From Bergeriella denitrificans NBRC 102155 (GTDB taxonomy: Bacteria > Pseudomonadota > Gammaproteobacteria > Burkholderiales > Neisseriaceae): a stretch of 60,758 nt of DNA. Shown here one piece after another: positions 5,619 through 57,076 of the stretch; the first letter of the stretch is position 1, and every line of letters begins with the position of its first letter. The stretch covers positions 1 to 60,758 of the forward strand of contig NZ_BCWL01000002.1 in NCBI RefSeq assembly GCF_001592185.1, read 5' to 3'. A program made the translations under genes and the position numbers. The notes below the pieces were generated by a model that saw only the letters and a program-made list of their open reading frames with translations, ran no database searches and was not told the DNA's origin.

Positions 5619-8321
5619 TTAGCCGGTGTTACGCAGACCTTGCGCCACGCCGTTGATGGTGAGATGGACCATCAGCAGGGCGTGCGGGTCTTCCGGGTTT
5701 TGGCGCAGGCGTTTGAGCATGGCGACCTGCAGACCGTTGAGCGCGTTCAGATAGGGAATACGCAGCGCCAGCGAGCGGGCCAGGCTGCGGTTGTCGCTCA
5801 AAAGCTCGGTGGTTTGCAGAATATCCAGCAGGGCTTTGCGGCTCTTCAGGTATTCTTCTTTAATCATGGCGAAAATCACGGCGGCTTTTTCGGGCGATTC
5901 GCTCAATTCGGCATAATCTTCCGCCAGCGTGATGTCGGTTTTCGCCATTACCTGCTCCATATTCGACAGCATGGCTTGGAAAAACGGGTTGTTTTTCGCG
6001 TGCTGCTGCATCAGCGTCATATTGGCCGGGTTTTGCTGACACAAAGTCACGACCGCGCTGCCGAAGCCGTACCAAGCAGGCAGCATCAGGCGGTTTTGCA
6101 TCCAGGAGAAGACCCACGGAATGGCGCGCAAATCCTGAATCCGCGCCAGCGTTTTGCGGCTGGCGGGACGGCTGCCGAGGTTGAGGGTGGCGATTTCGCG
6201 TATCGGGCTGGTTTGCAGGAAGTAGTCGATGAAGTCTTCATGCGTAATCAGCTCGCGGTAGTATTGGAACGAAATATCCGACAAAGCCTGCATCATCTCG
6301 GAATCGGGGTCTTTGCGGTCGGGCAGCAGGCTGGCTTCCAGCGTGGCGGCGACCAGCGTTTCCAGATTGCGGCGGGCATTGCTCGGGTCGGCGTATTTGG
6401 CGGTGATGACTTCGCCCTGCTCGGTAATGCGGATTTGACCGGCCACGCTGCCTGCGGGCTGCGCCAAAATCGCTTGGTAAGACGGGCCGCCGCCGCGGCC
6501 GACGCTGCCGCCGCGGCCGTGGAACAGGCGCATACGCACGTCGTATTTTTTAAACAGCTCCACCAAGCCCAATTCGGCCTGATACAGACACCACGAACTG
6601 GCGACGTAGCCGCCGTCTTTATTGGAGTCGGAATAGCCGAGCATGATTTCCTGAATATTGTCGCGGCTGGAGAGCAGCGCGCGGTACCATTCCAGCGCAA
6701 ACATGGTGTCCATCACCGGGCAGGCGTTTTCCAGCGCTTCGATGGTTTCAAACAGCGGCACGATATTCATACGGCTCTGCGGCTTGCCGTCGGTTACGCT
6801 CAAGAGGCCGCTTTCTTTCAGCAGTAGGGCGACGGCCAGCAGATCGCTGGGTTTTTCGCAGTTGGAAATAATGCACTGGGTCACGGCTTCTTCGCCGAAT
6901 TCGTCTTTGATTTTGCGCGCTTCGTTGAAAATCGCTAACTCGCGGCGGGCGTGTTCACTGTAGGTGACAAACGGGCTGTAGAGCGGGCGCTGGTGGTGCA
7001 GTTCGCGCAGCAGGGCGGCCTGTTTTTCGTCTTCCGAGAGCTGCCAATAATCTTCTAAACCGGCAGATTGGAACAGCTCGGCTACCACATCGCCGTGTTT
7101 TTCCGCGTGCTGGCGCAAATCCAGCGGCATCATGTGAAAGCCGCATACGGAAGCGGTGCGGATAATGTCGGCGATGCGGCTGTCGGCGGTGAGGCTGCTG
7201 CCGTTGTCGCGCAGCGAGCGTTGCAGGGCGTGCAGGTCGCGGAGAAACTCGGCGGCATGGGCGTAAGGTTCGCCGAAGCCGAATTTGCTGCCCAAGCCCA
7301 GGCCGAGCGCGCGCGCTTTGCCCATCACGCGTGCCATGATATAGGCGATGGCGCGGCGGTAAGGCTCTTCGGCGCGGGCGATTTCTTTATCGGGCGACTG
7401 CTCGGCCATCGCCGTTACATCATCATTGACGCTGACTCGGCGGGTGGAAAGCGGCAGCTCGCGGTAGAGCTTGTCCAGCTCGGCGCGGTAATGGCGGAAC
7501 ACGGCATCGGCGTGGCGGGTAAAGGCGTGGCGCAGCGTTTCGGCGGTCACGAAAGGGTTGCCGTCGCGGTCGCCGCCGATCCAGCCGCCGATTTTCAGAA
7601 TATCGGGCACGCGGATGCCGGGATAGGCCGTCTGAAGATCGCGCTCCATGCCGCGGTAGAGTTTGGGCAGAGCTTCAAAAAAGCTCATCGGGAAGATGGA
7701 TACGCCGTTGTTGATTTCATCGTTGACGGTGATTTTGTAGTGGCGGGTTTCGCTGGTCTGCCACAGGCCGAGCAGGATGGTGTCGATTTCGCGGCGCAAA
7801 TCCGCCAGCGCCGTCGCGTTGGTGCAGCGTTCGCGCTTGGGCAGCAGGGCGCGGATGCGGCGGTTGAAGCTCAATACCGACTGGCGCTGTACCTCGGTCG
7901 GGTGCGCGGTCAACACGGCAGTGACATTGGTGGCGTCGAGTTGCGTCTGCAGGGTTTTGCTGTCCACCTGGCCGGCACGCAGCTTGCGTACGGTATCGGC
8001 CAGGCTGCCTTCGGCGGCATCGTGTCCGGCATCTTCGTGAACTTGGCGGCGGCGCTCGTGGTGTACGTCTTCGGCGATATTGAGAATTTGCGCCAGCAGG
8101 CCGCAAGCCAGCGTTAAATCATGGGTTTGGCGCTCGTCGAGCTGGGGCAGTACTTTTTCAATCACCGCGCCGCTGTCGTCGGAGGCCGACAGCAGTTTGA
8201 CGGTTTCCACCACCAGCGGCGATGCTTCTTCATGCAAAAGGTCGAACAGGGATTGTTTTAAAAATTCCGCATCGGCCGCCAGCGCGGCATCTTTGGGGTT
8301 ATTCAGGATATGGAGCTGCAT
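5619..8321 (-). CDS. ppc: Phosphoenolpyruvate carboxylase
   Basis: Adds bicarbonate to phosphoenolpyruvate to give oxaloacetate, refilling the TCA cycle; a cytosolic tetramer. At 900 residues it has the usual length. Catalytic segments are present in order: VLTAHPTE (about residue 155), [23 protein letters not shown], and the glycine loop [14 protein letters not shown]; it ends in RNTG, the conserved C-terminus that carries the aspartate-inhibition site. I start at MQLHILNN (8321) because of the GAGAGAG just upstream; the frame is open 19 codons further but without family likeness. It is divergent from ettA. Confidence 0.95.
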
Positions 8322-8480
8322 GGTTTCTCTCTCTTCAATCAGGCAGATTGCGGATCCGGAGCGCCGGCGCGCGGACACGCAACAGGATATGAAATTAAAT
8401 TCCGCTAACGGCAGGATAAATCAAACTTTCCAAACCGACAAGCCTGATATTTGTTTCATAAGAAATAAATTGATGCCGCG

Positions 8481-8524
8481 CCGCCATGCCGTCTGAAAAA
8501 CGCGTTTTTCAGACGGCATGGCGG
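8481..8524. repeat. 44-bp palindrome of two AT-type DUS
   Basis: CCGCCATGCCGTCTGAAAAA and its exact reverse complement meet around CGCG. Unlike the other inverted pairs it lies between two divergent genes (ppc and ettA), where neither needs a terminator, and it carries the ATGCCGTCTGAA form of the uptake sequence. Confidence 0.85.
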
Positions 8525-8603
8525 CAATATTTTTCAAGCTGCCTGATTTGTGTTTTTCAGTTAAAATCAAACTATCTGTATCCATCACCCACGAAAGATT
8601 TTC

Positions 8604-10277
<1,674 letters not shown>

Positions 10278-12972: not shown

Positions 12973-13003
12973 AAAAAAAGGGGGTGGCTGATTTGCCACA
13001 CCC
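12973..13003 (-). terminator. Intrinsic terminator of the AniS-like sRNA
   Basis: Leftward reading gives GGGTGTGGC-AAATCA-GCCACCC, a stem of eight pairs with one bulged base, directly followed by seven T. Confidence 0.85.
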
Positions 13004-13109
13004 AAACACACACACATCAAGAGGAAAGAGGTAATGAAAACATTTCAAAAAATGAAGCGTAATAACCGCTAAGTGCATCAAGGCAAGCGGTATCTGCCCT
13101 GATGCATTA
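12973..13109 (-). ncRNA. aniS: AniS-like FNR-induced small RNA
   Basis: No credible protein is encoded in the 540 bases between rpoH and the next gene, but the minus strand has every part of an sRNA gene. An FNR box at 13144-13157 and a perfect TATAAT at 13117-13122 set a start near 13109. The transcript begins with a strong hairpin (arms TGCATCA-GGCA / TGCC-TGATGCA at 13074-13106), continues with an unpaired stretch containing ACCTCTTTCCTCTT, which is complementary to ribosome-binding sites, and ends in a GC hairpin (12981-13003) plus seven T. About 137 bases. AniS of N. meningitidis is an FNR-activated Hfq-binding sRNA of similar design; the name rests on that design, as I cannot align it. 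Confidence 0.75.
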
Positions 13110-27254: not shown

Positions 27255-27330
27255 GCGGGAATAGCTCAGTTGGTAGAGCGCAACCTTGCCAAGGTTGAGG
27301 TCGCGAGTTCGAGACTCGTTTCCCGCTCCA
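27255..27330 (+). tRNA. tRNA-Gly (GCC), copy 1
   Basis: A 76-base cloverleaf with acceptor GCGGGAA/TTCCCGC, D arm with GG, anticodon loop CTTGCCAAG reading GGC/GGU, T loop TTCGAGA and encoded CCA. Identical to copies 2-4. Confidence 0.97.
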
Positions 27331-27352
27331 TCCGGAATTCGACAGCCCTAAT

Positions 27353-27428
27353 GCGGGAATAGCTCAGTTGGTAGAGCGCAACCTTGCCAAGGTTGAGGTC
27401 GCGAGTTCGAGACTCGTTTCCCGCTCCA
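27353..27428 (+). tRNA. tRNA-Gly (GCC), copy 2
   Basis: Identical in all 76 bases to copy 1, after a 22-base spacer. Confidence 0.97.
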
Positions 27429-27453
27429 GTTTATCGTCAAATGTCATCCTAAT

Positions 27454-27529
27454 GCGGGAATAGCTCAGTTGGTAGAGCGCAACCTTGCCAAGGTTGAGGT
27501 CGCGAGTTCGAGACTCGTTTCCCGCTCCA
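27454..27529 (+). tRNA. tRNA-Gly (GCC), copy 3
   Basis: Identical to copy 1; the spacer before it (25 bases) differs in sequence from the others. Confidence 0.97.
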
Positions 27530-27544
27530 TTAGCCCGGCATTTG

Positions 27545-27625
<81 letters not shown>

Positions 27626-27665
27626 AGTCAGCAGCATGCTTTATCCGTAAAGCAGCTTTCAGTTT

Positions 27666-27739
27666 GGCGAGATAGCAAAGTGGTTATGCAGCGGATTGCA
27701 AATCCGTCGACGCCGGTTCGATTCCGACTCTCGCCTCCA
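27666..27739 (+). tRNA. tRNA-Cys (GCA)
   Basis: A 74-base cloverleaf with acceptor GGCGAGA/TCTCGCC, D loop with GG, anticodon stem GCGGA/TCCGT with loop TTGCAAA, four-base variable loop, T loop TTCGATT and encoded CCA. One C-A mismatch in the T stem. Confidence 0.96.
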
Positions 27740-27748
27740 CTTTCTCAC

Positions 27749-27826
27749 GGCGGGGTGGCAGAGTGTTTATGCCATAAGGGGTGCAACCTTTATGCAGGCC
27801 GGTTCAAATCCGCGCCCCCGCCTCCA
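27749..27826 (+). tRNA. Non-canonical tRNA-Cys-like gene (GCA)
   Basis: 78 bases with a perfect seven-pair acceptor (GGCGGGG/CCCCGCC), TCCA end, three-pair D stem (GCA/TGC) and T loop TTCAAAT, lying between tRNA-Cys and tRNA-Leu. The anticodon arm is unusual: ATAAGGG/CCTTTAT makes seven pairs, eight with the flanking C-G, around the six-base loop GTGCAA, with GCA preceded by T. The D loop (GAGTGTTTA) has no GG pair, and the T stem needs a bulged C (27813). Either a decaying duplicate of tRNA-Cys or one of the non-standard bacterial tRNA-Cys species with extended arms. The well-paired acceptor and long anticodon stem argue against simple decay. Confidence 0.65.
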
Positions 27827-27858
27827 GTTTGCTTGTTTTTCGACTGGGAAAAGCAAGA

Positions 27859-27948
27859 GCCCGGATGGTGAAATAGGTAGACACAACGGACTTAAAATCC
27901 GTCGGGGCTAAACACCCCGTGCCGGTTCGATTCCGGCTCCGGGCACCA
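27859..27948 (+). tRNA. tRNA-Leu (TAA)
   Basis: A 90-base class II tRNA: acceptor GCCCGGA/TCCGGGC, anticodon loop CTTAAAA (TAA), a long variable arm (CGGGG...CCCCG), T loop TTCGATT and ACCA end. Confidence 0.96.
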
Positions 27949-46566: not shown

Positions 46567-46625
46567 CCCCGTTTGCATTTGACCGCGTGCCGTTTTCAGA
46601 CGGCCTGCGATTTGGAGTGCCCCGC

Positions 46626-47516
46626 ATGAAAAGCCCGTTTCGCAACATCGGCATCGTAACCCGCCCGAATACGCCCGGCATCGAGCATACCGCGCATCGG
46701 CTGATTGATTTTTTACAGCGCGAAGGTTTCGGCATTTATCTCGACGAGCAGAGCGTCGGCGAGCAGGCGCTGCTGCCTGAGGATATCGCCCGCTGCCGCG
46801 CAGCCGCCAAAGCCGATTTGGGTAAAACCTGCGATTTGGTGGTGGTGTTGGGCGGCGACGGTACGTTTCTTTCCGTGGCGCGGGAAGTCGCGCCGCGTGC
46901 CGTGCCCATGATTGGTATCAACCAGGGGCATTTGGGCTTTCTGACCCAGATTTCGCATGAAAACATGACCGAGGGCTTAAAGCCGATTTTGGAGGGCAAA
47001 TATCTGCCGGAAGAGCGGATTTTGCTGGAAATCGAGCTGGTGCGTGACGGCGAGGTGTGCGAACGCTCGCTGGCTCTGAACGATTGCGTGCTTTCGCGCG
47101 GCGGGGCAGGGCAGATGATTGAGTTTGAAGTGTTTATCAACCGCGAGTTTGTCTATACGCAGCGCTCGGACGGCCTGATTGTGTCCACGCCCACCGGCTC
47201 GACGGCTTATGCGCTGGCGGCGGGCGGGCCGATTTTGCAGGCCGGATCGCGGGTGGTGACTTTGGTGCCGATTTGCCCGCAGTCGATGACCAACCGCCCG
47301 ATTGCGGTGTCCGACAGCAGCGAAATCGAAGTATTGGTGACCAAAAGCGGCGACGCGCGCGTGCATTTCGACGGGCAGTCGTTTCTCGATATCCAAAACC
47401 TCGACCGCCTGATTATCCGCCGCTACCACAACCCGCTGCGCGTGCTGCATCCGACTGATTACCAGTATTACCGCACGCTGCGCCAGAAGCTGCATTGGGG
47501 CGAGCAGTTGGTGTGA
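46626..47516 (+). CDS. nadK: NAD kinase
   Basis: Makes NADP from NAD and ATP in the cytosol. The 296-residue protein has the motif VVVLGGDGTFLSVAR (about residue 70), NDCVLSRGGAGQMIEFEVFI and TPTGSTAYALAAGGPI, with NQGHLGFLTQ between. The start is MKSPFRNIGIV (46626); thirteen upstream codons made of an uptake sequence are excluded. Last gene of the run, followed by a DUS terminator that recurs after the M16 protease gene 8 kb downstream. Confidence 0.96.
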   Translation: MKSPFRNIGIVTRPNTPGIEHTAHRLIDFLQREGFGIYLDEQSVGEQALLPEDIARCRAAAKADLGKTCDLVVVLGGDGTFLSVAREVAPRAVPMIGINQGHLGFLTQISHENMTEGLKPILEGKYLPEERILLEIELVRDGEVCERSLALNDCVLSRGGAGQMIEFEVFINREFVYTQRSDGLIVSTPTGSTAYALAAGGPILQAGSRVVTLVPICPQSMTNRPIAVSDSSEIEVLVTKSGDARVHFDGQSFLDIQNLDRLIIRRYHNPLRVLHPTDYQYYRTLRQKLHWGEQLV

Positions 47517-47550: not shown

Positions 47551-47640
47551 AAAAAAAAGCCGTCTGAAAATGGAGATTTTCAGACGGCTTTTCCCGTTAT
47601 GTAGGGGAATGGATTTCCTGTTTCGGGGTTTAATGGACAT
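47551..47640 (+). repeat. Terminator-bearing 80-bp repeat, copy 1
   Basis: Inverted DUS with a GGA loop (GAAAATGGAGATTTTC), followed by CCCGTTATGTAGGGGAATGG and ATTTCCTGTTTCGGGG. The same order with seven or so base differences, all transitions in the first 35 bases, is found at 55489-55570. The two copies frame the ABC-receptor-protease module. Confidence 0.7.
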
Positions 47641-47694
47641 TTAGGATGATTTTTTATCCCATTCTCCTTTATTAAACACCAAGTTGACACACAT

Positions 47695-47747
47695 TGGTAA
47701 AAATCGCTGAAAGTACTTCAGCTAGGGGATTTCAGCGATTCTTACCA
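47695..47747. repeat. 18-bp inverted repeat upstream of the ABC transporter
   Basis: TGGTAAAAATCGCTGAAA and TTTCAGCGATTCTTACCA pair at 17 of 18 positions around a 17-base loop. It does not end in a T-run and contains no uptake sequence. The surrounding gap (47517-47916) has no gene; besides this it holds the repeat at 47551 and the promoter at 47824. Confidence 0.8.
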
Positions 47748-47823
47748 TTCTAAACGGCCATTAGCTTTAATGAGTACTTTTCTTTCAGGTAGGTTGCTAT
47801 GGTGGAAAGGCTATTCGAAAAAA

Positions 47824-47853
47824 TTCAACTCATCTGAATGAAAGGCGTATAAT
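47824..47853 (+). promoter_or_regulatory. Probable promoter of the ABC transporter gene
   Basis: TTCAAC (-35), 18 bases, TATAAT (-10), with the Fur-like site just downstream at the expected start point. Confidence 0.55.
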
Positions 47854-47861
47854 ATATTTTT

Positions 47862-47880
47862 GAATATCATTCTCATTTTC
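47862..47880. promoter_or_regulatory. Fur-box-like site before the ABC transporter gene
   Basis: GAATATCATTCTCATTTTC agrees with the palindromic Fur consensus at 14 of 19 positions. It overlaps the inferred transcription start, where Fur binding would repress when iron is plentiful. Confidence 0.55.
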
Positions 47881-47916
47881 CGAGTTTAAAAAAATCCAAA
47901 ACAGAGATATGTCATA

Positions 47917-49584
47917 ATGCTTAAAATTCTCAAACAATTCAAATGGTTTCTTAAAGATTACTGGTGGCGCAAAGATAATATACTGTCTTGGGTGGTGTTG
48001 ATCGTATTGGTGGCGTTGGGCTTCGGCGTGGTGGAAATCAATGTGCGGATTAACGAATGGAGCAAGTCGTTTTACGATACGCTGGAGGCGTTTCAGGCGG
48101 ATAAGCTGTATGTATTGATTCAGGAATATTTGGTTTATGTGGCTGTTTTCGTGGTGGCGGCTGTGTATCGCGGCTGGCTGCGCAAACTACTGATTATCCG
48201 CTGGCGCTCGCATTTGACCGAACGGCTGCTGGGCGATTGGCTGGAAAAGCGGGCGTTTTACCGCATTGCGCTGAAACAGATCACGGACAACCCCGACCAG
48301 CGGATTGCCGAAGATGTGAATATTTTTGTTTCGCGCACCATCGAGCTGTTTATCTCGCTGCTGACCAATCTGGCGCAACTGTATTCGTTTATTGCGATTT
48401 TGTGGAAACTGTCGGGTACGCATACGTTTAACATCATGGGGCATGACATTACCGTTACCGGTTATTTGGTGTGGATTGCGGTGGTCTACGCCTTATTCGG
48501 CAGTATTTTCACCCAGGTCATCGGTAAAAAACTGCACGAGTTAAACTACCGCCAGCAAAAATTCGAGGCAGATTTCCGTGCTTCATTGGTGCGTAAAAAC
48601 GATAATGCCGAGCAAATCGCGCTGTATCACGGCGAAAGCCGCGAGCGAGCTACTTTGCGCGGCGAGTTTAACGAAATTATCGGCAACTGGCGTTTGTTGA
48701 TGAACCGCGAGCGTAATTTGGGTTTTTTCACCACCGCGTACGACCGCTTTTCGCTGATGCTGCCGGTGTTGGCGAGCATACCGTTGTTTATGGCCAAGGC
48801 CATTACGTTGGGCGGGCTGATGCAGATTCGCAGCGCGTTTGGTGCGGTGTTTAACTCATTGAGCTGGTTTGTGTTTGCCTATACCATTTTGCCGGAGTGG
48901 AGTGCGACCGTGCAGCGTCTGCACCAATTCCGTGAAAACATCCTGACCGAGCAGGACAACGATAAGCCCGCGCCGCTTTCAGACGGCCTTGAAATCAACG
49001 GCCTGAATATTTATACGCCGAACGGCGAAGCCATTTTGAGCAATGTGCGCGCCAAAATCAGCCCGCAAAAATGGACGCAATTGGCCGGACGCAGCGGCTT
49101 GGGCAAATCCACACTGCTGCGCACCATCGGCGGCCTGTGGGCGGATTACGACGGTGCATGGCAGGCGCCGAAAGGCACCAGCCTGCTGCTGCCGCAACGC
49201 ACCTACCTCGGCAGCGGTACGCTCGCAGAAATCCTCAGCTACCCCGATACCCATATCCACGACGACCGCGTGTATCACGAATTACTGGCCGAAGTCGGTT
49301 TGGAAAAATGGCAGCACGATTTGCACAAAGCGCAAAACTGGGCGCAAACGCTCTCTGCCGGCGAGCAGCAGCGCATTGCCATTGCCCGCGCCTTGTTGAT
49401 TCAGCCCGATTATCTCTATCTCGATGAAAACACTTCGGCGCTGGATATGCAGTCTGCACGTTATTTGTTGAACCTGCTGAAAGAAAAATTACCGCATACC
49501 ACCGTCGTTATTGTCAGCCATCAGCCGGAATTGGCGGATATGTATGATGAGGTGTTGGACTTGAGCGCATTTAAAGCTGCTTGA
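47917..49584 (+). CDS. YddA/FusD-like ABC transporter (fused permease and ATPase)
   Basis: A 555-residue half-transporter of the SbmA/BacA-related ABC_membrane_2 family, like E. coli YddA (561 residues). The first 330 residues hold six hydrophobic segments with the family signature SRTIELFISLLTNLAQLYS and EADFRASLVRKNDNAEQIAL. The ATPase follows with Walker A GRSGLGKST (about 390), signature LSAGEQQR and Walker B YLYLDENTSALD. Next to it are a TonB-dependent receptor and an M16 protease, in the order of yddA-yddB-pqqL and with the parts of the Fus system, where FusD is this protein. Likely moves peptides across the inner membrane; direction not shown. Confidence 0.85.
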   Translation: MLKILKQFKWFLKDYWWRKDNILSWVVLIVLVALGFGVVEINVRINEWSKSFYDTLEAFQADKLYVLIQEYLVYVAVFVVAAVYRGWLRKLLIIRWRSHLTERLLGDWLEKRAFYRIALKQITDNPDQRIAEDVNIFVSRTIELFISLLTNLAQLYSFIAILWKLSGTHTFNIMGHDITVTGYLVWIAVVYALFGSIFTQVIGKKLHELNYRQQKFEADFRASLVRKNDNAEQIALYHGESRERATLRGEFNEIIGNWRLLMNRERNLGFFTTAYDRFSLMLPVLASIPLFMAKAITLGGLMQIRSAFGAVFNSLSWFVFAYTILPEWSATVQRLHQFRENILTEQDNDKPAPLSDGLEINGLNIYTPNGEAILSNVRAKISPQKWTQLAGRSGLGKSTLLRTIGGLWADYDGAWQAPKGTSLLLPQRTYLGSGTLAEILSYPDTHIHDDRVYHELLAEVGLEKWQHDLHKAQNWAQTLSAGEQQRIAIARALLIQPDYLYLDENTSALDMQSARYLLNLLKEKLPHTTVVIVSHQPELADMYDEVLDLSAFKAA

Positions 49585-49601
49585 GCGGGGTAGACAGAAT
49601 C

Positions 49602-49637
49602 AAGGCCGTCTGAAAAATATTTTTCAGACGGCTTTTT
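49602..49637 (+). terminator. Inverted DUS terminator after the ABC gene
   Basis: AAGGCCGTCTGAAAAATA and TTTTTCAGACGGCTTTTTT. It implies that the receptor gene has its own promoter. Confidence 0.8.
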
Positions 49638-49731
49638 TAGATGCTTTTAAAAGCATTAAATTTTGCATTTTTACCGTCGGATTACATCACTTGGGTGGTC
49701 TATCCAACATTTCAGACGGCAAATGGTAGCT

Positions 49732-49753
49732 CGGACACTTTTGCCCGACAATA
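49732..49753. repeat. REP-like palindrome, CACTTTTGCCCGAC type
   Basis: TCGGAC-ACTTTT-GCCCGA, followed by CAATACTT. A second copy (TCGTGC-ACTTTT-GCCCGA) is at the right end of the window (60735-60756). The copies share CACTTTTGCCCGAC and differ within the left arm. Confidence 0.5.
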
Positions 49754-49784
49754 CTTTCAGACGGCTTGGGTAAGAGTAGGCAGG

Positions 49785-49813
49785 CAACAGTGCCCGCCCT
49801 GCGGGAACTGTTG
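49785..49813. repeat. Strong hairpin before the receptor gene
   Basis: CAACAGT-G-CCCGC, loop CCT, GCGGG-A-ACTGTTG: twelve pairs with one G-A internal mismatch. No T-run follows. It lies in the 472-base gap 49585-50056, which otherwise holds the DUS terminator, stray uptake-sequence halves, the REP-like palindrome and an AT-rich promoter zone. Confidence 0.7.
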
Positions 49814-49924
49814 TAAATAAAATACATTTAAAACTCATCTTTTAAAAAAGAAAGCCCAAATAAAACAACATATTAAAAAATCAGCATAAAGTAATTATTT
49901 TTATTTTGGTAGATAATAAAAATC

Positions 49925-49947
49925 TAATTGATAAGCAATATCAATTA
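49925..49947. promoter_or_regulatory. Fur-box-like palindrome before the TonB-dependent receptor
   Basis: TAATTGATA-AGCAA-TATCAATTA is a perfect inverted repeat of nine-base arms. Its core GATAAGCAATATC matches the right 13 bases of the Fur consensus at 11 positions. A GATAAT 13 bases upstream (49912-49917) may be the -10. Confidence 0.6.
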
Positions 49948-50056
49948 GTGATAAATTTGCGTAAATTTTGTTCCGGAAAATATCAGTTTTTTCCGCATAC
50001 CGATAAGCCGTCTGAAACGGCGCATGATTAACCGAGTTGATTAGAGATTTCACACC

Positions 50057-52621
50057 ATGAAACCGACCACAATGATGCTGGCCCTGGCTGCCGCGTTTTC
50101 TACCCCTTATGCTTTGGCTGAAGAGGATGATGTTCAGACGGCCTCTGACAGCCGGCAGGCCGAAGTCGTACATAATTTAAATGAGATTGTGGTGTACGGC
50201 AGTCCGTTCAGCCAGCAAATCGGTACGCAAACGGTGACTCAGCAAGATATTCAAAACCAGCCGACCGGTAACGGTAATCTGACTGATTTATTGCGGGATA
50301 ACGTGAATGTTCGTTTTTCCAATAATGCGGGCAGCTCGTTGTCGGCGGGTGAGATTTCTCCGGACGAAGTTTCATTTCACGGTGAGAAGTTTTACAACAA
50401 TAATTTTGTCGTCAATGGTATGTCCAACAACGACAACATCAATCCCGCGCAAGGCGGGGGCGGCAGCAATGCCAATCATGAGCAGGGCTTGAATCCGTAT
50501 GAGCTGCCGGCCGGCGGTACGCAGTCGTTTTATTTGGATTCCGGCTTGGTTAAAAATCTTGAGGTATTCGACAGCAACGTGTCGGCCAAACACGGTCAGT
50601 TTACCGGCGGCGTGGTGGTGGCCAATTTGATTGATGCCGATGTCAAGAAAGCCAGTGGCAGAATCTCATACCGCACCACACGCGATGAATGGGCTGAGTT
50701 CCATATCCAAGAGGGTAGGGAAGAAGAGTTTAACGAAGCCAGCAAATATTCCGCCCAACCGCAATTCCGCAAACAGCAATATAGTGCGACCATCAATCAG
50801 CCTTTGAACGATAAGTTGGCGGTATTGTTCTCTTACAACCGCAGCGAATCGGATATCCCGTTCCGTCATTCCCAGCTGCGTCCCGCCGACCAAGCGACGG
50901 TTGCGGAAGGTACGTACAGCACCAACACCAAGCGCTTGAGTGAAACCTATCTGTTGCGCTCGACCTATCTGCCGGAAAACGGTGATGTGTGGAAGTTTAC
51001 CGCCATGTACGCGCCGCACGAATTCAAGCTGGCCAAAGGCAATGTGTATAACGGTAACTTTACCAATCAGGGTGGCGGTTATCAGTTTGACGTGAAATGG
51101 GATAAAGAATTCGACAACGGCCTGCGTATGGAAAGTTATGCGGGCTATAAGGAAACCGGCGATAAGATTACCCACGACGGCAGCAACTACAATATTTACC
51201 GCCGTACCGACAGCATCGGTTGGCGTGCGGCAAGTAATGCGACGACCAATGAGGGCGGCTACGGCAGTTATGAAACCGAAAAACGCACCTTCACCCTGAA
51301 GCAGGATTTCAGTGGCCTAAAATTTGATACCGGCGCGTTAAAACACAATCTGATTTTCGGTTGGAAAGCTGATTTTGCCTCGGGTAAATACCGCCGCTTT
51401 AATGATGTGGCCAACAACCGTACTTATATCGCTTCAAACCGTGTGGTGTGTAACGGCGCAGATGCCTGTATCGACGGCGAACAATATGCCCGCGCCCGCC
51501 GTTTGTATAAAGCCATGACCAATAAGGCCGATGACAATACTTATTCTGCTTATGCGGAAGACCGTCTGAAGTGGAAAAACTGGGAAGCATCGCTGGGCGT
51601 GCGCGCCGACCACAGCCAGTTTACCGGCAATACCGATTTTGCCCCGCGCTTCTCTACTTCGTATGACGTGTTCGGTAACAAGAAAACCCGTCTGTTCGGC
51701 GGTTTCAACCGCTATTACACCAATTCCATGCTGGCGTACAAACTGCGCGAAGGCATTAACAGCTATACCGACCAAACCCGTACACTGCTTGCCAATGTTC
51801 CGCAGGCGTGGGTAGATTCTATCGAGGGCTTGGAATCAGGTGTCGGCCAATGGCACATGGGCGACATCAAAACGCCGTACAGTGATGAAAAAGTATTGGG
51901 TTTTGAACAAAATATCGCGGGTGTGGTCGGTACGTTCAAATGGGTCAACCGCCACAGTAAAAACAGCCTGACCCGCAAAACCACCGGTACGGGTACAGAC
52001 CGTGTTAGCGAGTTGGTTAACTCGGGCTGGAGCAAAAACGACAGCTACACATTGGATGTACGCCCTGAAAAAGCGTGGAAATCCAAATATGCCCATATCG
52101 ATTGGAGTTTGGGCGTACAAGTCAGCGACAGTAAATCCAACAGCAATACTTATGACGACCCTTTGAACGCCGAAGCGGATAGAGTGGAAAAAGTCATTTA
52201 CGACGGCAAGCTGATGAATGTCGGCGACCTGCCTCCTGAGGACTACAATCAGCGTTGGCGCGCCTTTGCCACGTTGAACACGTATTTCCCGAAACTGCGC
52301 CTGAATTGGAGCCAGCGTTTCAGCTATAACCCGGGTTATAAAAACCGCTACCTTGAAGAAAACAATGTAGCCTGCTCGATGAGCGTGTGCGGAGATTACG
52401 GCGGCGAAGTCGATGTGTACAATACACAGAAAAACGGCAGCATGTTCTTAGTTGACTGGCGTTTTGTCTACAAACAACCGACTGTCCGCAACCAGTCGCT
52501 GGACATTACCTTGGATATCAACAACGTATTCAACAAACGCGCCGTTGTGCGCACCACCAGCTCGACCAAAACCTATAAAATGGGGCGCAATTTCTGGCTG
52601 GGTGTTGCTTATAACTGGTAA
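50057..52621 (+). CDS. TonB-dependent outer-membrane receptor (YddB/FusA position)
   Basis: An 854-residue receptor: signal peptide (to about residue 21, TPYALA), a TonB box in NEIVVYGS, a plug domain (about 45-200, IQNQPTGNGNLTDLLRDNV, SAKHGQFTGGVV) and a 22-strand barrel ending in the aromatic WLGVAYNW. Two short cysteine pairs (VCNGADAC, ACSMSVC) lie in probable surface loops. It has no likeness that I can see to TbpA, LbpA, HpuB or FetA beyond the general fold. Between an ABC transporter and a periplasmic protease gene it should import a protein or peptide, possibly an iron-containing one; the ligand is unknown. Confidence 0.88.
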   Translation: MKPTTMMLALAAAFSTPYALAEEDDVQTASDSRQAEVVHNLNEIVVYGSPFSQQIGTQTVTQQDIQNQPTGNGNLTDLLRDNVNVRFSNNAGSSLSAGEISPDEVSFHGEKFYNNNFVVNGMSNNDNINPAQGGGGSNANHEQGLNPYELPAGGTQSFYLDSGLVKNLEVFDSNVSAKHGQFTGGVVVANLIDADVKKASGRISYRTTRDEWAEFHIQEGREEEFNEASKYSAQPQFRKQQYSATINQPLNDKLAVLFSYNRSESDIPFRHSQLRPADQATVAEGTYSTNTKRLSETYLLRSTYLPENGDVWKFTAMYAPHEFKLAKGNVYNGNFTNQGGGYQFDVKWDKEFDNGLRMESYAGYKETGDKITHDGSNYNIYRRTDSIGWRAASNATTNEGGYGSYETEKRTFTLKQDFSGLKFDTGALKHNLIFGWKADFASGKYRRFNDVANNRTYIASNRVVCNGADACIDGEQYARARRLYKAMTNKADDNTYSAYAEDRLKWKNWEASLGVRADHSQFTGNTDFAPRFSTSYDVFGNKKTRLFGGFNRYYTNSMLAYKLREGINSYTDQTRTLLANVPQAWVDSIEGLESGVGQWHMGDIKTPYSDEKVLGFEQNIAGVVGTFKWVNRHSKNSLTRKTTGTGTDRVSELVNSGWSKNDSYTLDVRPEKAWKSKYAHIDWSLGVQVSDSKSNSNTYDDPLNAEADRVEKVIYDGKLMNVGDLPPEDYNQRWRAFATLNTYFPKLRLNWSQRFSYNPGYKNRYLEENNVACSMSVCGDYGGEVDVYNTQKNGSMFLVDWRFVYKQPTVRNQSLDITLDINNVFNKRAVVRTTSSTKTYKMGRNFWLGVAYNW

Positions 52622-52676
52622 TTTTATATGACGCGGTATTTTCAGACGGCCTTTACGTTTCCCTAGGCCGTCTGAA

Positions 52677-55475
52677 ATGCTTTTTAACGACTCACAAAAG
52701 ACCTCAAACCTTATGAATGCTTTTATCCCCCAAATCATCTTTGCCGCAGCGGTATCGACTGTCGCCGTCGGCGCTTACGCTGAAAATACCTACAGTACAG
52801 GCCGTCTGAATAATGGGCTGGTGTACCATGTGTTAAACGTACCCTCGGAGCCGGGGCGGGTTGATGTGCGCGTGCAGGTCGGCGTGGGGGCGAGCGATGA
52901 AAACGGTACGTCTGAAATCGGCGTGGCGCATATGGTCGAGCACATGGTGTTCCGCGCCGCACCCGATTATCCGCAAGGTGTGGGCGAAACGCTGATTCAG
53001 CAGGGCTGGCGGCGCGGCGCGAATTTCAATGCCATGACCAACTACGAACGCACGCTGTATATGTTCAGCCCGAACAAGGGCAAGGTGCAGTTGGATGAAA
53101 CGCTGAAAGCTGCCGCAGCGATGATGACACCACGCCCGTTTGCACAGGCCGATTGGCAAAAAGAGCAGCAGATCATTGAGGCCGAATGGCGCAACGGTTT
53201 GGGCGTGGCCGAGCGCATGAACCGCAAGCGCAACGAGGTCATCCGCAGCGGCAGCCGCCAGTCGCGCCATGCGATTATCGGCACGCAAACTAGCATTCAA
53301 AACACGCCGGTCAATGTATTGGAAGATTTCCACCGCCGCTGGTACGTAGCCAACAATATGCAGGTTATGATTTCCGGCGATATTACGCCCGAGCAGGCAC
53401 GCCCGTTGCTGGAAAAATATTTCGGCCGTCTGAAAACCGGCGAGCTGCCCGACCGCAGCGGTGCGTATTACGAGCCGGTATTGCAAAACGGCTGGCACGT
53501 CAACCAGCTTCAGGATAAAGACAGCGGTGGCAGCTTCGTAGCCGTATTGTTCCGTCAAAACGACGCGCCCTCGCGGGTTTACGACAGCGAGGCCGGTACG
53601 CGCGCGCGCATGGTCGACCGCTTTGCCGCACGGATTCTGGCTCAGCGTGTGAAAAACGAATTGAAAGACCTGCCAAAAGCAGTCAGCACCATTACCGCGC
53701 GTAAAAGTGATATCGGCCGCGAAAGCATCGCCATCGGCTTGGTTGCTTCGGTTACCCCCGACGGCCATAACCAAGGCCTGACGGAGATTTTGAAACTGCG
53801 GGAACGCATTTTGCGTGCACCGGTCACGCGGGCTGAGTTTGACGATTACATGAAAACCATGCGCAGCACCATCGCACGGGCGAAACAGAAAACCACGCTG
53901 CCCGAGCCGTTTGGCGATGCGATTCAACTGGTCAGCGAAAACGCCTTAAACGGCAAACCGGTACGTACCCAAGCGCAAAACGCTGCCAGTGCCGAGCCGG
54001 TGTTAAACCGCTTGACGCCGTCTGAAATTACCGCGCGTTTGCAACAATGGCTGAACGCTGATGACAAGCTGGTGCAAATCCAAGCGCCTAGCCTCACCGA
54101 AATCAAAGGCTTTCCGAACGCCGCACAAATCGAAGCTGAAGCCGCCGCTCTGCAAACCGCGCAACTGCCGCCGTTGCAAGCCAAAGCCGAAGCAGGCAAG
54201 GGCGCGTTTACCGCCAAAGCGAAAAAAGGCGAAATCACTGCCGAAAGCTACGACCAATCATTGAAAATTACCCGTTGGACGCTGCAAAACGGCGATAAAG
54301 TGGTGCTGCTGCAAAACCCCGTGGCCGCCGGCAAGGTTTATCTGCAAGCCTACGGCGCGGCGGGCTTTATGAGTAGCAACCTCAATCCGTGGCAATCGCA
54401 GCTGGCGCAGCAGATTGTATGGCAGTCCGCTCCGCAAGGTTGGACAAACGAGCAGTTGAACGAGTGGAAAAAACAGCACAAACTCAGCCTGAATATGCGC
54501 CTGAATGCGACCAATAGCAAAGTGGACGGCAGTGCCGCCGATAAAGAAGCAGAAAACCTGTTCCGCCTTTACCAAGCCTATTACACCACGCCGCAAGTGG
54601 GCGAAGATTACCGTGATGCGATTATGACCATGATTCGCCGTTTGACCATGGATGAAACCGCTTCCCGAGCGGCTAAAGAAAAAGCCGTCACCGATTTGCG
54701 CTTCGGCGGCAAAGCCTATCTGTCGCCGACGCAGACGGATTTGGAAGAAACCGAAGAGCCGCAACTGTTGGCACAATGGCAAAGCCTCAGTCAAGCACCG
54801 ACCACCTACTATATTTTGACTGCGCAAAAACCGCGCAAAATCAAGCCATTGGTCGAACAGTATCTGGCCGCCATCGAGCGCAAGCCGGTTGAAAGCGCCA
54901 AGCCGTATCAGGCCTTGAGCGGCGACAAAGTCGAGCGCCAAAACGTCAACGCCGAAGCGCGTACCGATGTCGCCGCCTGGTCGTTTAGCGATGAAAAATG
55001 GTCGCCGCAAACCGCCGCCCAAACCGCCATTTTGCGCACCTTGGCCTACGAGCAGCTCAAAGCTGAATTGCGCGACAAAGCGTTGGGCGTGTACAGTCTG
55101 AAGTTTGAAACCACACTCAATCCCGAGACCAATCGGGTTGAAAGCGAACTGCGCTTCACTACCACCGCCGACAAAGCCGACGGACTGTGGAAGCTGGGCG
55201 AAACCACGCTGGCCAAACTGCCGCAAACCATCACCGAACAGCAAGTCGCGCCTTTGCGCAGCAACTTTGTCGAGCAGGAAAAAGGCCGTCTGAAAAACCC
55301 CGAAACCTGGCTCAACCGTTTGGTATTGAGCGAGCAGCATTTCGGTGACGCGCGTTATCTGAATGAAATGGACAAACTGCCCGAAGCCATCACGGTGGAA
55401 AAATTGCAGGACACCGCCCAATTATTGTGGAACCCGCAAAACCGCCGCGTGTTGATTGCCGATCCCATGAAGTAA
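52677..55475 (+). CDS. Periplasmic M16 zinc protease (PqqL/FusC-like)
   Basis: A 932-residue two-half M16 peptidase, near the 931 residues of E. coli PqqL. A signal peptide (IIFAAAVSTVAVGAYA) precedes the inverted zinc motif HMVEH (about residue 85); the downstream glutamate ligand is in QQIIEAEW. The C-terminal half lacks the motif, as usual. FusC and PqqL cleave ferredoxin-like proteins in the periplasm after import through a TonB receptor. The gene starts 55 bases after the receptor gene, at an ATG touching an uptake sequence; an ATG at 52713 gives a more standard signal peptide. Neither has a good ribosome site. Confidence 0.88.
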   Translation: MLFNDSQKTSNLMNAFIPQIIFAAAVSTVAVGAYAENTYSTGRLNNGLVYHVLNVPSEPGRVDVRVQVGVGASDENGTSEIGVAHMVEHMVFRAAPDYPQGVGETLIQQGWRRGANFNAMTNYERTLYMFSPNKGKVQLDETLKAAAAMMTPRPFAQADWQKEQQIIEAEWRNGLGVAERMNRKRNEVIRSGSRQSRHAIIGTQTSIQNTPVNVLEDFHRRWYVANNMQVMISGDITPEQARPLLEKYFGRLKTGELPDRSGAYYEPVLQNGWHVNQLQDKDSGGSFVAVLFRQNDAPSRVYDSEAGTRARMVDRFAARILAQRVKNELKDLPKAVSTITARKSDIGRESIAIGLVASVTPDGHNQGLTEILKLRERILRAPVTRAEFDDYMKTMRSTIARAKQKTTLPEPFGDAIQLVSENALNGKPVRTQAQNAASAEPVLNRLTPSEITARLQQWLNADDKLVQIQAPSLTEIKGFPNAAQIEAEAAALQTAQLPPLQAKAEAGKGAFTAKAKKGEITAESYDQSLKITRWTLQNGDKVVLLQNPVAAGKVYLQAYGAAGFMSSNLNPWQSQLAQQIVWQSAPQGWTNEQLNEWKKQHKLSLNMRLNATNSKVDGSAADKEAENLFRLYQAYYTTPQVGEDYRDAIMTMIRRLTMDETASRAAKEKAVTDLRFGGKAYLSPTQTDLEETEEPQLLAQWQSLSQAPTTYYILTAQKPRKIKPLVEQYLAAIERKPVESAKPYQALSGDKVERQNVNAEARTDVAAWSFSDEKWSPQTAAQTAILRTLAYEQLKAELRDKALGVYSLKFETTLNPETNRVESELRFTTTADKADGLWKLGETTLAKLPQTITEQQVAPLRSNFVEQEKGRLKNPETWLNRLVLSEQHFGDARYLNEMDKLPEAITVEKLQDTAQLLWNPQNRRVLIADPMK

Positions 55476-55488
55476 GGGGATAGGCATG

Positions 55489-55570
55489 AAAAAAGCCGTC
55501 TGAAAATGGAGATTTTCAGACGGCTTTTTTCCCGCTATACAAGAGAACAGATTTCCTGTTTCAGCGTAAA
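55489..55570 (+). repeat. Terminator-bearing 80-bp repeat, copy 2
   Basis: Inverted DUS with the same GGA loop as at 47551, then CCCGCTATACAAGAGAACAG and ATTTCCTGTTTCAGCG. It terminates the protease gene and matches the copy after nadK in the same orientation. Confidence 0.7.
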
Positions 55571-55711: not shown

Positions 55712-57076
55712 ATGTCTGCAAATCCTTCCCGTCAAACCTGGTCGAGCCGTTTGACGTATATTCTGACCGTGGCGGGCGCGACGGTCGGCTTCGGCGCTAC
55801 TTGGCGTTTCCCGTATTTGGTCGGTGAAAACGGCGGTGGCGCTTATGTATTTTTATTCTGTATCGCGATGTTTGTCATCGGCATTCCGATGATTTTGGTG
55901 GAAAACGTGATTGGCCGCCGCCATAAGGTGAATGCGCTCGATGCGTTCGGCGGCGAGATGAACGGCCGGCCGGTGGCGAAAATCTGGAAGCTGGTGGGCT
56001 GGATGGGTCTGCTCGGCGCGTTCGGCATTATGGCGTATTACATGGTGCTGGGCGGCTGGGTTATCAGCTATATCGTCAACATTATCGGCGGCGGCTTGGA
56101 TGTGTCGCAGCCGGTGGACGGCGCGCTGACTAAGGCGTTTTTTACCGAACATATTGAAAACAGCCCGTGGGCCATCGCGTTTTATACGCTGCTTTTCGTG
56201 GCGGTGAACCAGTGGATTTTGGTGAAAGGTGTGATTGGCGGGATTGAGAAGGCGGCCAAGTATTTGATGCCGCTGCTGTTTGTGTTTCTGATTGCGATGG
56301 TGATCCGCAATGTGACGCTGCCGGGCGCGATGGAAGGGATTGTTTTTTATCTGAAACCGGATTTCAGCAAGGTTACGGCGGAGCTGTTTGTGTTTGTATT
56401 GGGGCAGGTGTTTTTTGCCCTAAGCCTGGGCTTCGGCGTGATGATTACGTTGTCGAGCTATTTGGATAAAAACGAAAATCTGGTGCAGACGGCGGTGATT
56501 ACGGCGGTTACCAATACCGTGATTGCGGTACTGGCGGGCTTTATGATTTTCCCGTCGCTCTTCAGCTTCGGCGTGGCGCCCGATTCCGGCCCGACGCTGG
56601 TGTTCCAAAGCCTGCCGATTGTGTTTTCGCATATGTGGGCGGGGCCTGTGTTTGCGGTGATTTTCTTCAGCCTGCTGCTGATTGCGGCGCTGACGACTTC
56701 GCTGACGATTTACGAGGTGCTGATTACCACCATTCAGGAGAAAACCAAAATCCGCCGCAGTATGGCGATTACGCTGGTGTTGGGCGGGATTTTCCTGCTG
56801 GGCAATATTCCGTCGATTTTGAGCTACGGCCCGTGGCGCGGGGTATCGGTGTTCGGCATGAATATTTTTGATGCGTTCGATTATATCAGCGGCAATATCC
56901 TGTTTATGCTGACCGCGCTGGGTTCGGCGCTGTTTGTCGGCTTTGTGATGAAAGACGAGGCCAAAGACGAATTGCTGTATCAGGGCAACCATGCCACGGT
57001 GAATATTTGGTTCAATTATGTGAAATACATTGTGCCGCTGGTGATTTTGCTGATTTTCTTCAGTAATCTGCTTTGA
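55712..57076 (+). CDS. Sodium-dependent transporter, NSS (SNF/SLC6) family
   Basis: A 454-residue inner-membrane carrier with about twelve hydrophobic segments. TM1 carries the sodium and substrate site GATVGFGATWRFPYLVGENG; later segments include LGQVFFALSLGFGVMITLSS (TM6-7 region). Bacterial members such as LeuT, MhsT and TnaT take up amino acids with sodium. The substrate is not readable from the sequence. It is a single-gene unit with an AT-rich upstream region (55571-55711) that includes a possible promoter. Confidence 0.92.
   Translation: MSANPSRQTWSSRLTYILTVAGATVGFGATWRFPYLVGENGGGAYVFLFCIAMFVIGIPMILVENVIGRRHKVNALDAFGGEMNGRPVAKIWKLVGWMGLLGAFGIMAYYMVLGGWVISYIVNIIGGGLDVSQPVDGALTKAFFTEHIENSPWAIAFYTLLFVAVNQWILVKGVIGGIEKAAKYLMPLLFVFLIAMVIRNVTLPGAMEGIVFYLKPDFSKVTAELFVFVLGQVFFALSLGFGVMITLSSYLDKNENLVQTAVITAVTNTVIAVLAGFMIFPSLFSFGVAPDSGPTLVFQSLPIVFSHMWAGPVFAVIFFSLLLIAALTTSLTIYEVLITTIQEKTKIRRSMAITLVLGGIFLLGNIPSILSYGPWRGVSVFGMNIFDAFDYISGNILFMLTALGSALFVGFVMKDEAKDELLYQGNHATVNIWFNYVKYIVPLVILLIFFSNLL

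Follow-up and report, generated by a model that had tools for sequence, protein, structure and literature searches.

The first 60,758 nucleotides of contig NZ_BCWL01000002.1 of Bergeriella denitrificans NBRC 102155, the stretch that we call the window, carry between nadK and a gene for an SNF-family transporter three co-directional, intact open reading frames (ORFs) that encode an ABC transporter, a TonB-dependent receptor and an M16 protease. Judged by their sequences these proteins belong to the Fus family proper, and we think it likely that together they form a complete Fus-type protein-import module that scavenges iron in three steps. The observation of the module is confirmed, and both the family and its occurrence in this genus have been reported before. 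What is new is an apparently mosaic ancestry, an empty corresponding site in a near relative, and the fact that FusB and part of the ferredoxin contacts are missing; also new is that the full module occurs in just 3 of 46 Neisseria species genomes (the window genome, N. iguanae and a genome designated G038), each time between unrelated neighbours. An entire module for import and digestion in Neisseria provides a place to seek non-plant prey of the Fus family, and the mismatch between the histories of receptor and protease offers a view on how prey range changes.

Distant homologues of the fus operon have been named in Neisseria, E. coli, Yersinia and Pasteurellaceae (PMC5095587, 2016), and the family has since been mapped in PMC6793856, which leaves the substrates open. 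The preliminary description of this DNA had proposed a further route of iron piracy in Neisseria; the module is present, but its outline is not new. Judged by title or the start of the abstract, none of the papers listed by the literature searches is a study of a Neisseria Fus member.

Three proteins of the Fus family and their site

The same description had listed an ABC transporter, a receptor and an M16 protease with intact HxxEH in the order of E. coli yddA-yddB-pqqL, and the ORFs lie where it placed them. Its Fus-like reading holds and was even understated, since receptor and protease group with FusA and FusC rather than with YddB and PqqL. Neither trees nor identities cluster them with the E. 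coli proteins; the best match of the protease is FusC rather than an unrelated M16 family, and that of the receptor, by phmmer and by model, is FusA rather than a siderophore receptor. The cluster holds a FusA-family receptor (phmmer, tree and model), a FusC-family M16 protease with HxxEH and the distal Glu, and a FusD-type fused ABC transporter, parts by which membership in the Fus-type systems is recognized.

The ABC protein matches Pfam ABC_membrane_2 (2e-49), SbmA_BacA (5e-35) and ABC_tran (9e-18), contains Walker A, signature, Walker B and H-switch motifs, and is 86% identical to its N. iguanae counterpart and 52% to Dickeya FusD. The receptor matches no Pfam or NCBIfam family; FusA itself fell below significance in a TonB-receptor HMM (PMC6071955). 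Searched with phmmer against the PDB, it matches FusA (4zgv) at 690 bits over residues 40-854 and YddB (6ofr) at 229 bits, the sole distinct PDB sequences found at E 0.001. An AlphaFold model, built without templates from an alignment of 23 receptor sequences that included Pectobacterium FusA (pLDDT 77.5, pTM 0.78), gives TMq values of 0.84 to FusA and 0.77 to YddB, against 0.51-0.58 for the PfeA, FrpB and TbpA chains listed. The protease matches FusC (6b03/6brs) at 619 bits and PqqL (6ofs) at 132 bits. Its catalytic residues H85, E88, H89 and E170 are intact, correspond to FusC H80, E83, H84 and E165, and are kept in 53 of 53 protease rows. Translation probably starts at Met13 (52713), after which a putative signal peptide was judged by eye, and the protease would be expected in the periplasm.

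Gaps of 472 and 55 bases separate the ABC gene from the receptor gene and the receptor gene from the protease gene. Direct repeats bracket the module, the two copies consisting of 40 nucleotides at 100% and an adjoining 41 nucleotides at 78% identity. The part beyond the hairpin occurs at just these two places genome-wide (up to 3 mismatches), whereas the hairpin part, which contains a DNA uptake sequence, has dozens of genomic relatives (40 of 910 candidates scored). In G001, the closest of the 46 genomes searched when NAD kinase is compared (89%), 606 bases without any module separate nadK from the SNF gene, and genome searches of G001 gave no receptor match and no ABC match. This comparison with an empty site is a single pair, because G001 alone, among 30 nadK loci examined from the 46 genomes, has an SNF gene within 1.5 kb of nadK. 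No flanking ORF of at least 90 aa is common to the three module loci (stretches of 16, 19.4 and 19 kb, module genes excluded), and the module therefore occupies three different sites. At the site in the window the module has the appearance of an insertion, although G001 may instead have lost it.

Table 1. Positions of the module, its flanks and related loci (window numbering unless a contig or locus is named)
Feature	Position	Strand	Basis or remark
nadK	46587-47516		flanks module on the ABC-gene side
Left direct-repeat copy	47553-47629	+	starts with DNA-uptake-sequence hairpin, probable nadK terminator
Probable promoter -10 (TATAAT, 47848-47853), overlapped downstream by a Fur-box-like site (47862-47880)	47848-47880	+	putative function
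FusD-type ABC half-transporter, 555 aa, SbmA/BacA-like membrane part fused to ATPase	47917-49584	+	Pfam, identities, motifs
Weak Fur-box-like site before receptor	49924-49942	+	13/19, P about 0.17
FusA-type TonB-dependent receptor, 854 aa	50057-52621	+	phmmer against PDB, model, trees
TonB-box region NEIVVYGS	50180-50203	+	compared with PMC13253070
FusC-type M16 protease, 932 aa	52677-55475	+	Pfam, phmmer, tree, alignment
HMVEH zinc-binding active site (aa 85-89)	52929-52943	+	ORF translation, alignment
Right direct-repeat copy	55489-55567	+	module terminator hairpin
SNF-family transporter gene	55712-57076		flanks module on the protease side
Sole TonB_C match found in genome	C159:1335-1550 (L035)	-	another contig than the module
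Pasteurellaceae lipoprotein loci	L078:8666-9910; L098:8651-9940 (second copy near 7588-8616); L101:8794-9888
Further Pasteurellaceae lipoprotein loci	L074:about 9075-9881; L126:13439-14659

FusA-family receptors were found in 11 of the 46 Neisseria species genomes (E 1e-3); ten of the matches cover most of the length (that in G016 at just 27% identity), and the match in G031 is a 59-residue stretch at a contig end. Across the bacterial family the count is 18 of 83 genomes, some with distant or partial matches only. The G038 module is ordered A-C-D. G031 holds an ABC gene (71%) and a protease gene (61%) on separate short contigs, and G021 a lone protease 54% identical to that of the module. Among the best 80 of 244 named FusA-family loci, a FusC homologue lies near the receptor in 57 and FusC together with an ABC transporter in 35.

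Other genomes hold single parts. G008 carries beside guaA a truncated FusD remnant (L160:8684-9283) that is 90% identical to the window ABC protein over 200 residues and whose promoter region can still be made out. Many Neisseria have stand-alone FusC-like proteases (L042-L059, L039:16270-18960), 31-37% identical to the module protease; no FusA or close FusD homologue directly adjoins them in the loci fetched, and we rejected them as further modules on this ground. In L052 an ABC protein of 30% identity is encoded some 3 kb from the protease, and N. iguanae has one such stand-alone protease about 7 kb from its module. Those placed in the tree keep the catalytic residues (10 of 10) and have mostly lost R180 (7 of 10). 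Elsewhere in the window are an Rfam AniS small RNA match (12973-13081, minus strand; 59.4 bits, gathering threshold 50) and four tandem tRNA-Gly(gcc) genes followed by tRNA-Cys and tRNA-Leu (27255-27948).

Ancestry of receptor, protease and transporter

The module appears to be a mosaic, with a receptor of different ancestry from the protease and transporter. Trees were built from 48 receptor, 53 protease and 25 ABC rows, with loci taken from a hand-picked list and short or split ORFs (receptor or protease below 700 aa), low scores and unlisted loci left out. In the ABC tree the window, N. iguanae and G038 proteins form one clade (support 99). In the FusC tree the window protease pairs with that of N. 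iguanae (97), these two join G038, G021 and G031 in one clade (100), and the module proteases are nested in a group of 15 rows that is exclusively Neisseria (100). In the receptor tree, by contrast, window and N. iguanae fall inside a 14-row clade (100) whose other members are Pasteurellaceae and one Moraxella, with Aggregatibacter kilianii and Lonepinella nearest and with G038 outside. The receptor is 52% identical to that of N. iguanae and 51% to that of Aggregatibacter, whereas the corresponding values for FusC are 73% and 36%. Approximately unbiased (AU) tests, from which E. coli rows and, for FusC, the stand-alone proteases were omitted, reject a single clade of the three Neisseria receptors (p 3e-67) and a grouping of the window and N. 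iguanae FusC with Pasteurellaceae (p 5e-43). A sister relationship of the window and N. iguanae receptors is not rejected (p 0.30, 27-row set).

Two circumstances weigh against this reading: the groups used in the AU tests were named after the trees had been inspected, and the Neisseria receptors sit on long terminal branches (0.5-0.7). The latter would suit an explanation in which the receptor looks Pasteurellaceae-like through long branches or convergent loops, without any exchange. We regard this as improbable: the one-clade arrangement is still rejected on the 759 gap-free columns of a receptor tree of 27 of the 48 rows (AU p 4e-8), and the near-equal identities of the receptor to N. iguanae and Aggregatibacter are not repeated in FusC. 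We retain the mosaic; receptor exchange between Neisseria and Pasteurellaceae may have run in either direction.

Composition is compatible with a younger receptor, although the counts are small and receptor GC may differ anyway. The neisserial DNA uptake word, in the form we take it to have, occurs 90 times in the window; in the window, N. iguanae and G038 modules, respectively, it is found 4, 3 and 4 times in the FusC gene, and 1, 0 and 0 times in both the receptor and the ABC gene. GC is.504,.467 and.507 in the receptor gene and.557,.526 and.624 in the FusC gene. As a footprint of transfer we sought AAGTGCGGT, which we take to be the Pasteurellaceae uptake word, and found none in the window or in the N. 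iguanae and G038 module genes; ACAAGCGGT, a related word, is present in the window a single time, at a position outside the module.

The trees place protease and transporter in an old Neisseria lineage and show a receptor shared with Pasteurellaceae; prey recognition thus appears to be the exchangeable part of the module. The window genome has a second FusA-family receptor on contig C23 (L003:6823-10572), 37% identical to the module receptor, which adjoins a divergently oriented di-haem CCP/MauG gene. Similar pairs occur in two Neisseriaceae metagenome-assembled genomes (L122, L146) and in Lampropedia (L115), and the pairing has been described for clusters without FusC (PMC6793856). A FusC-like protease is present somewhere in the genome in all 8 carriers of a C23-type receptor, against 21 of 46 genomes with such a protease overall (chance of this co-occurrence 0.0008, shared ancestry uncontrolled), and we infer from this that the module protease may serve both receptors. 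More speculatively, and with less than even confidence, we can picture a predatory plug-in kit carried by bacteria of the mouth and mucosa, in which one periplasmic protease of the window genome would serve two FusA-family receptors with different prey, and in which receptors would be traded across families, between Neisseria and Pasteurellaceae, to switch prey while protease and transporter stay within the genus.

Proposed mechanism and candidate prey

In the scenario that we favor, Fur would release the module under iron limitation. The FusA-type receptor, like others of its family, would capture a small folded protein at the cell exterior and bring it into the periplasm, presumably with energy supplied through the general TonB of the cell and not through a dedicated FusB. 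The FusC-type protease, with its intact active site, would then trap and cut the prey there, setting free iron or a fragment that carries it, and the FusD-type transporter would carry the products inward across the inner membrane.

Possible iron control was addressed by scoring sites against a Fur-box consensus that we take to be representative. The preliminary description had placed Fur-box-like sites at the start of both transcription units; matches are present there, yet they are weak and near chance (14/19 at 47862 before the ABC gene, P about 0.04 in 300 Markov-resampled sequences, and 13/19 before the receptor). Matches of 16/19 in N. iguanae and 14/19 in G038 precede the receptor gene. 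The element TAATTGATAAGCAAT of the receptor-upstream site is kept in N. iguanae, whose own best site lies elsewhere before the receptor. The decayed ABC copy in G008 repeats TATAAT and the AATATCATTCTCATTT element, which is modest support because the whole stretch is 87% identical.

Several points weigh against the module as a Fur-controlled iron scavenger. The Fur-like sites of the window lie near the level of chance, three other places in it also score 14/19, the best match before the ABC gene of N. iguanae is just 12/19, and the tonB contig, examined as a control, has a best site no better than 13/19. For a possibly related pair in H. influenzae, PMC2627913 reports the receptor HI1369 as iron/heme regulated and the protease HI1368 (pqqL) as not significantly so in the two isolates tested. 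The literature covered holds no binding, import, cleavage or iron data on any Neisseria member, and the prey could be a non-iron protein. Both F2 arginines kept in the window protease are also present in PqqL, and they are for that reason uninformative on ferredoxin.

The prey is probably other than the exact plant ferredoxin used by Pectobacterium. An alternative is that plant-type [2Fe-2S] ferredoxin itself is the prey, with chewed plant matter or debris of oral phototrophs as its source. The FusA fold and family of the receptor would suit this, as would the many bearers of receptors of its clade that we take to come from herbivores (koala, tortoise, iguana, rabbit, vicuna and sheep), namely Lonepinella koalarum, N. 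iguanae, Pasteurella testudinis, Chelonobacter oris, Actinobacillus capsulatus, A. vicugnae and Bibersteinia; A. kilianii and P. bettyae, however, are presumably from humans. The published FusC contacts with ferredoxin are Y298, M392 and A428 at site F1 and R180, R332, R796 and R798 at site F2 (PMC6071955). Three of these seven are kept in the window protease (R180, R332, A428), whereas R796 is Ser, R798 Lys, Y298 Thr and M392 Ala, so that the sites read T, A, A and R, R, S, K in place of the Pectobacterium residues. Nearly every enterobacterial, Acinetobacter and Pseudomonas row has Met at position 392 (Pantoea has Leu, Yersinia Ser), and no Neisseria, Pasteurellaceae or Moraxella row does; PqqL also has Ala. 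These losses argue against unchanged plant ferredoxin as prey, though they are confounded by ancestry. At the docking-interface positions (listed as far as the available passage of PMC5095587 gives them) the receptor shares 27% identity with Pectobacterium FusA, compared with 45% at its other positions, although such positions diverge fast in all receptors compared. Net charge at these positions was discarded as a discriminator, ranging from -12 to +2 over the 48 rows without separating the enterobacterial receptors from the others. No FusB-like ORF is present in the module (47595-55570), and the position of FusA Asp53, the FusB-box residue that pairs with FusB, is Asn in the window receptor; in Pectobacterium FusB contacts ferredoxin directly (PMC13253070). 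On balance we consider import of plant ferredoxin unlikely.

A host (animal) iron or metal protein, taken in the manner of Tbp and Lbp with import and proteolysis added, is a possibility that we take seriously while holding it short of even. The receptor clade consists solely of bacteria that we take to be animal-associated, and a TbpB-barrel-like surface lipoprotein stands beside the receptor in some Pasteurellaceae relatives, although the Neisseria module has none. The discussion in PMC6793856 favors host proteins for obligate human pathogens and commensals. A Colicin_M search was made for ferredoxin-type bacteriocins as pointers to the ligand; none of the 46 genomes of the genus matched, a negative that is uninformative because the control genomes gave no match either.

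Relation to known systems

The window proteins are 48, 44 and 38% identical to FusD, FusA and FusC of Pectobacterium (P. versatile), and receptor, protease and transporter are homologous over nearly their full length, encoded by adjacent genes and, for the receptor, of the same fold. The Pectobacterium operon differs in including FusB and in its order, (B-)A-C-D, whereas the window has D-A-C without FusB. E. coli yddA-yddB-pqqL has the identical gene order, the same protein families and likewise no FusB beside it, which would suit a YddAB-PqqL system like that of E. coli, with no more than a loose relationship to Fus. YddA, YddB and PqqL, however, are only 39, 30 and 23% identical to the window proteins and form separate, very long branches in all three trees. 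The higher identities and PDB scores to Fus mean that the label yddA-yddB-pqqL, under which the module had first been described, fits its gene order and not its ancestry. We hold an E. coli-like system to be very improbable, its ancestry being largely refuted by the trees, although a common function could remain.

Fus clusters of Pasteurellaceae (Aggregatibacter kilianii, Lonepinella, Mannheimia and others) hold the nearest receptors outside the genus, 44-51% identical, but their proteases are just 35-38% identical and lie in another clade, and their order is mostly A-C, with or without D. In this family related lipoproteins adjoin FusA-family receptors at several loci and in some cases are TbpB-barrel-like and precede the receptor. 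A lipobox can be seen by eye in L078, L098 and L101; TbpB_B_D scores above the Pfam cut-off in L078, just under it in L098, and has no match in L101 or L074. By analogy, these lipoproteins hint at a two-part receptor like TbpA-TbpB within Fus-type modules.

The TbpAB, LbpAB, HpuAB and FrpB (FetA) systems of Neisseria share with the module the use of a TonB-dependent receptor, although the receptor model reaches a TMq of just 0.51-0.55 with the TbpA and FrpB chains listed. TbpA takes iron from a host protein, and the known iron-piracy systems of Neisseria strip the metal at the cell surface; to our knowledge, those named here involve no protease and no protein import. Plant soft-rot bacteria, by contrast, import ferredoxin via Fus and then cut it open for its iron.

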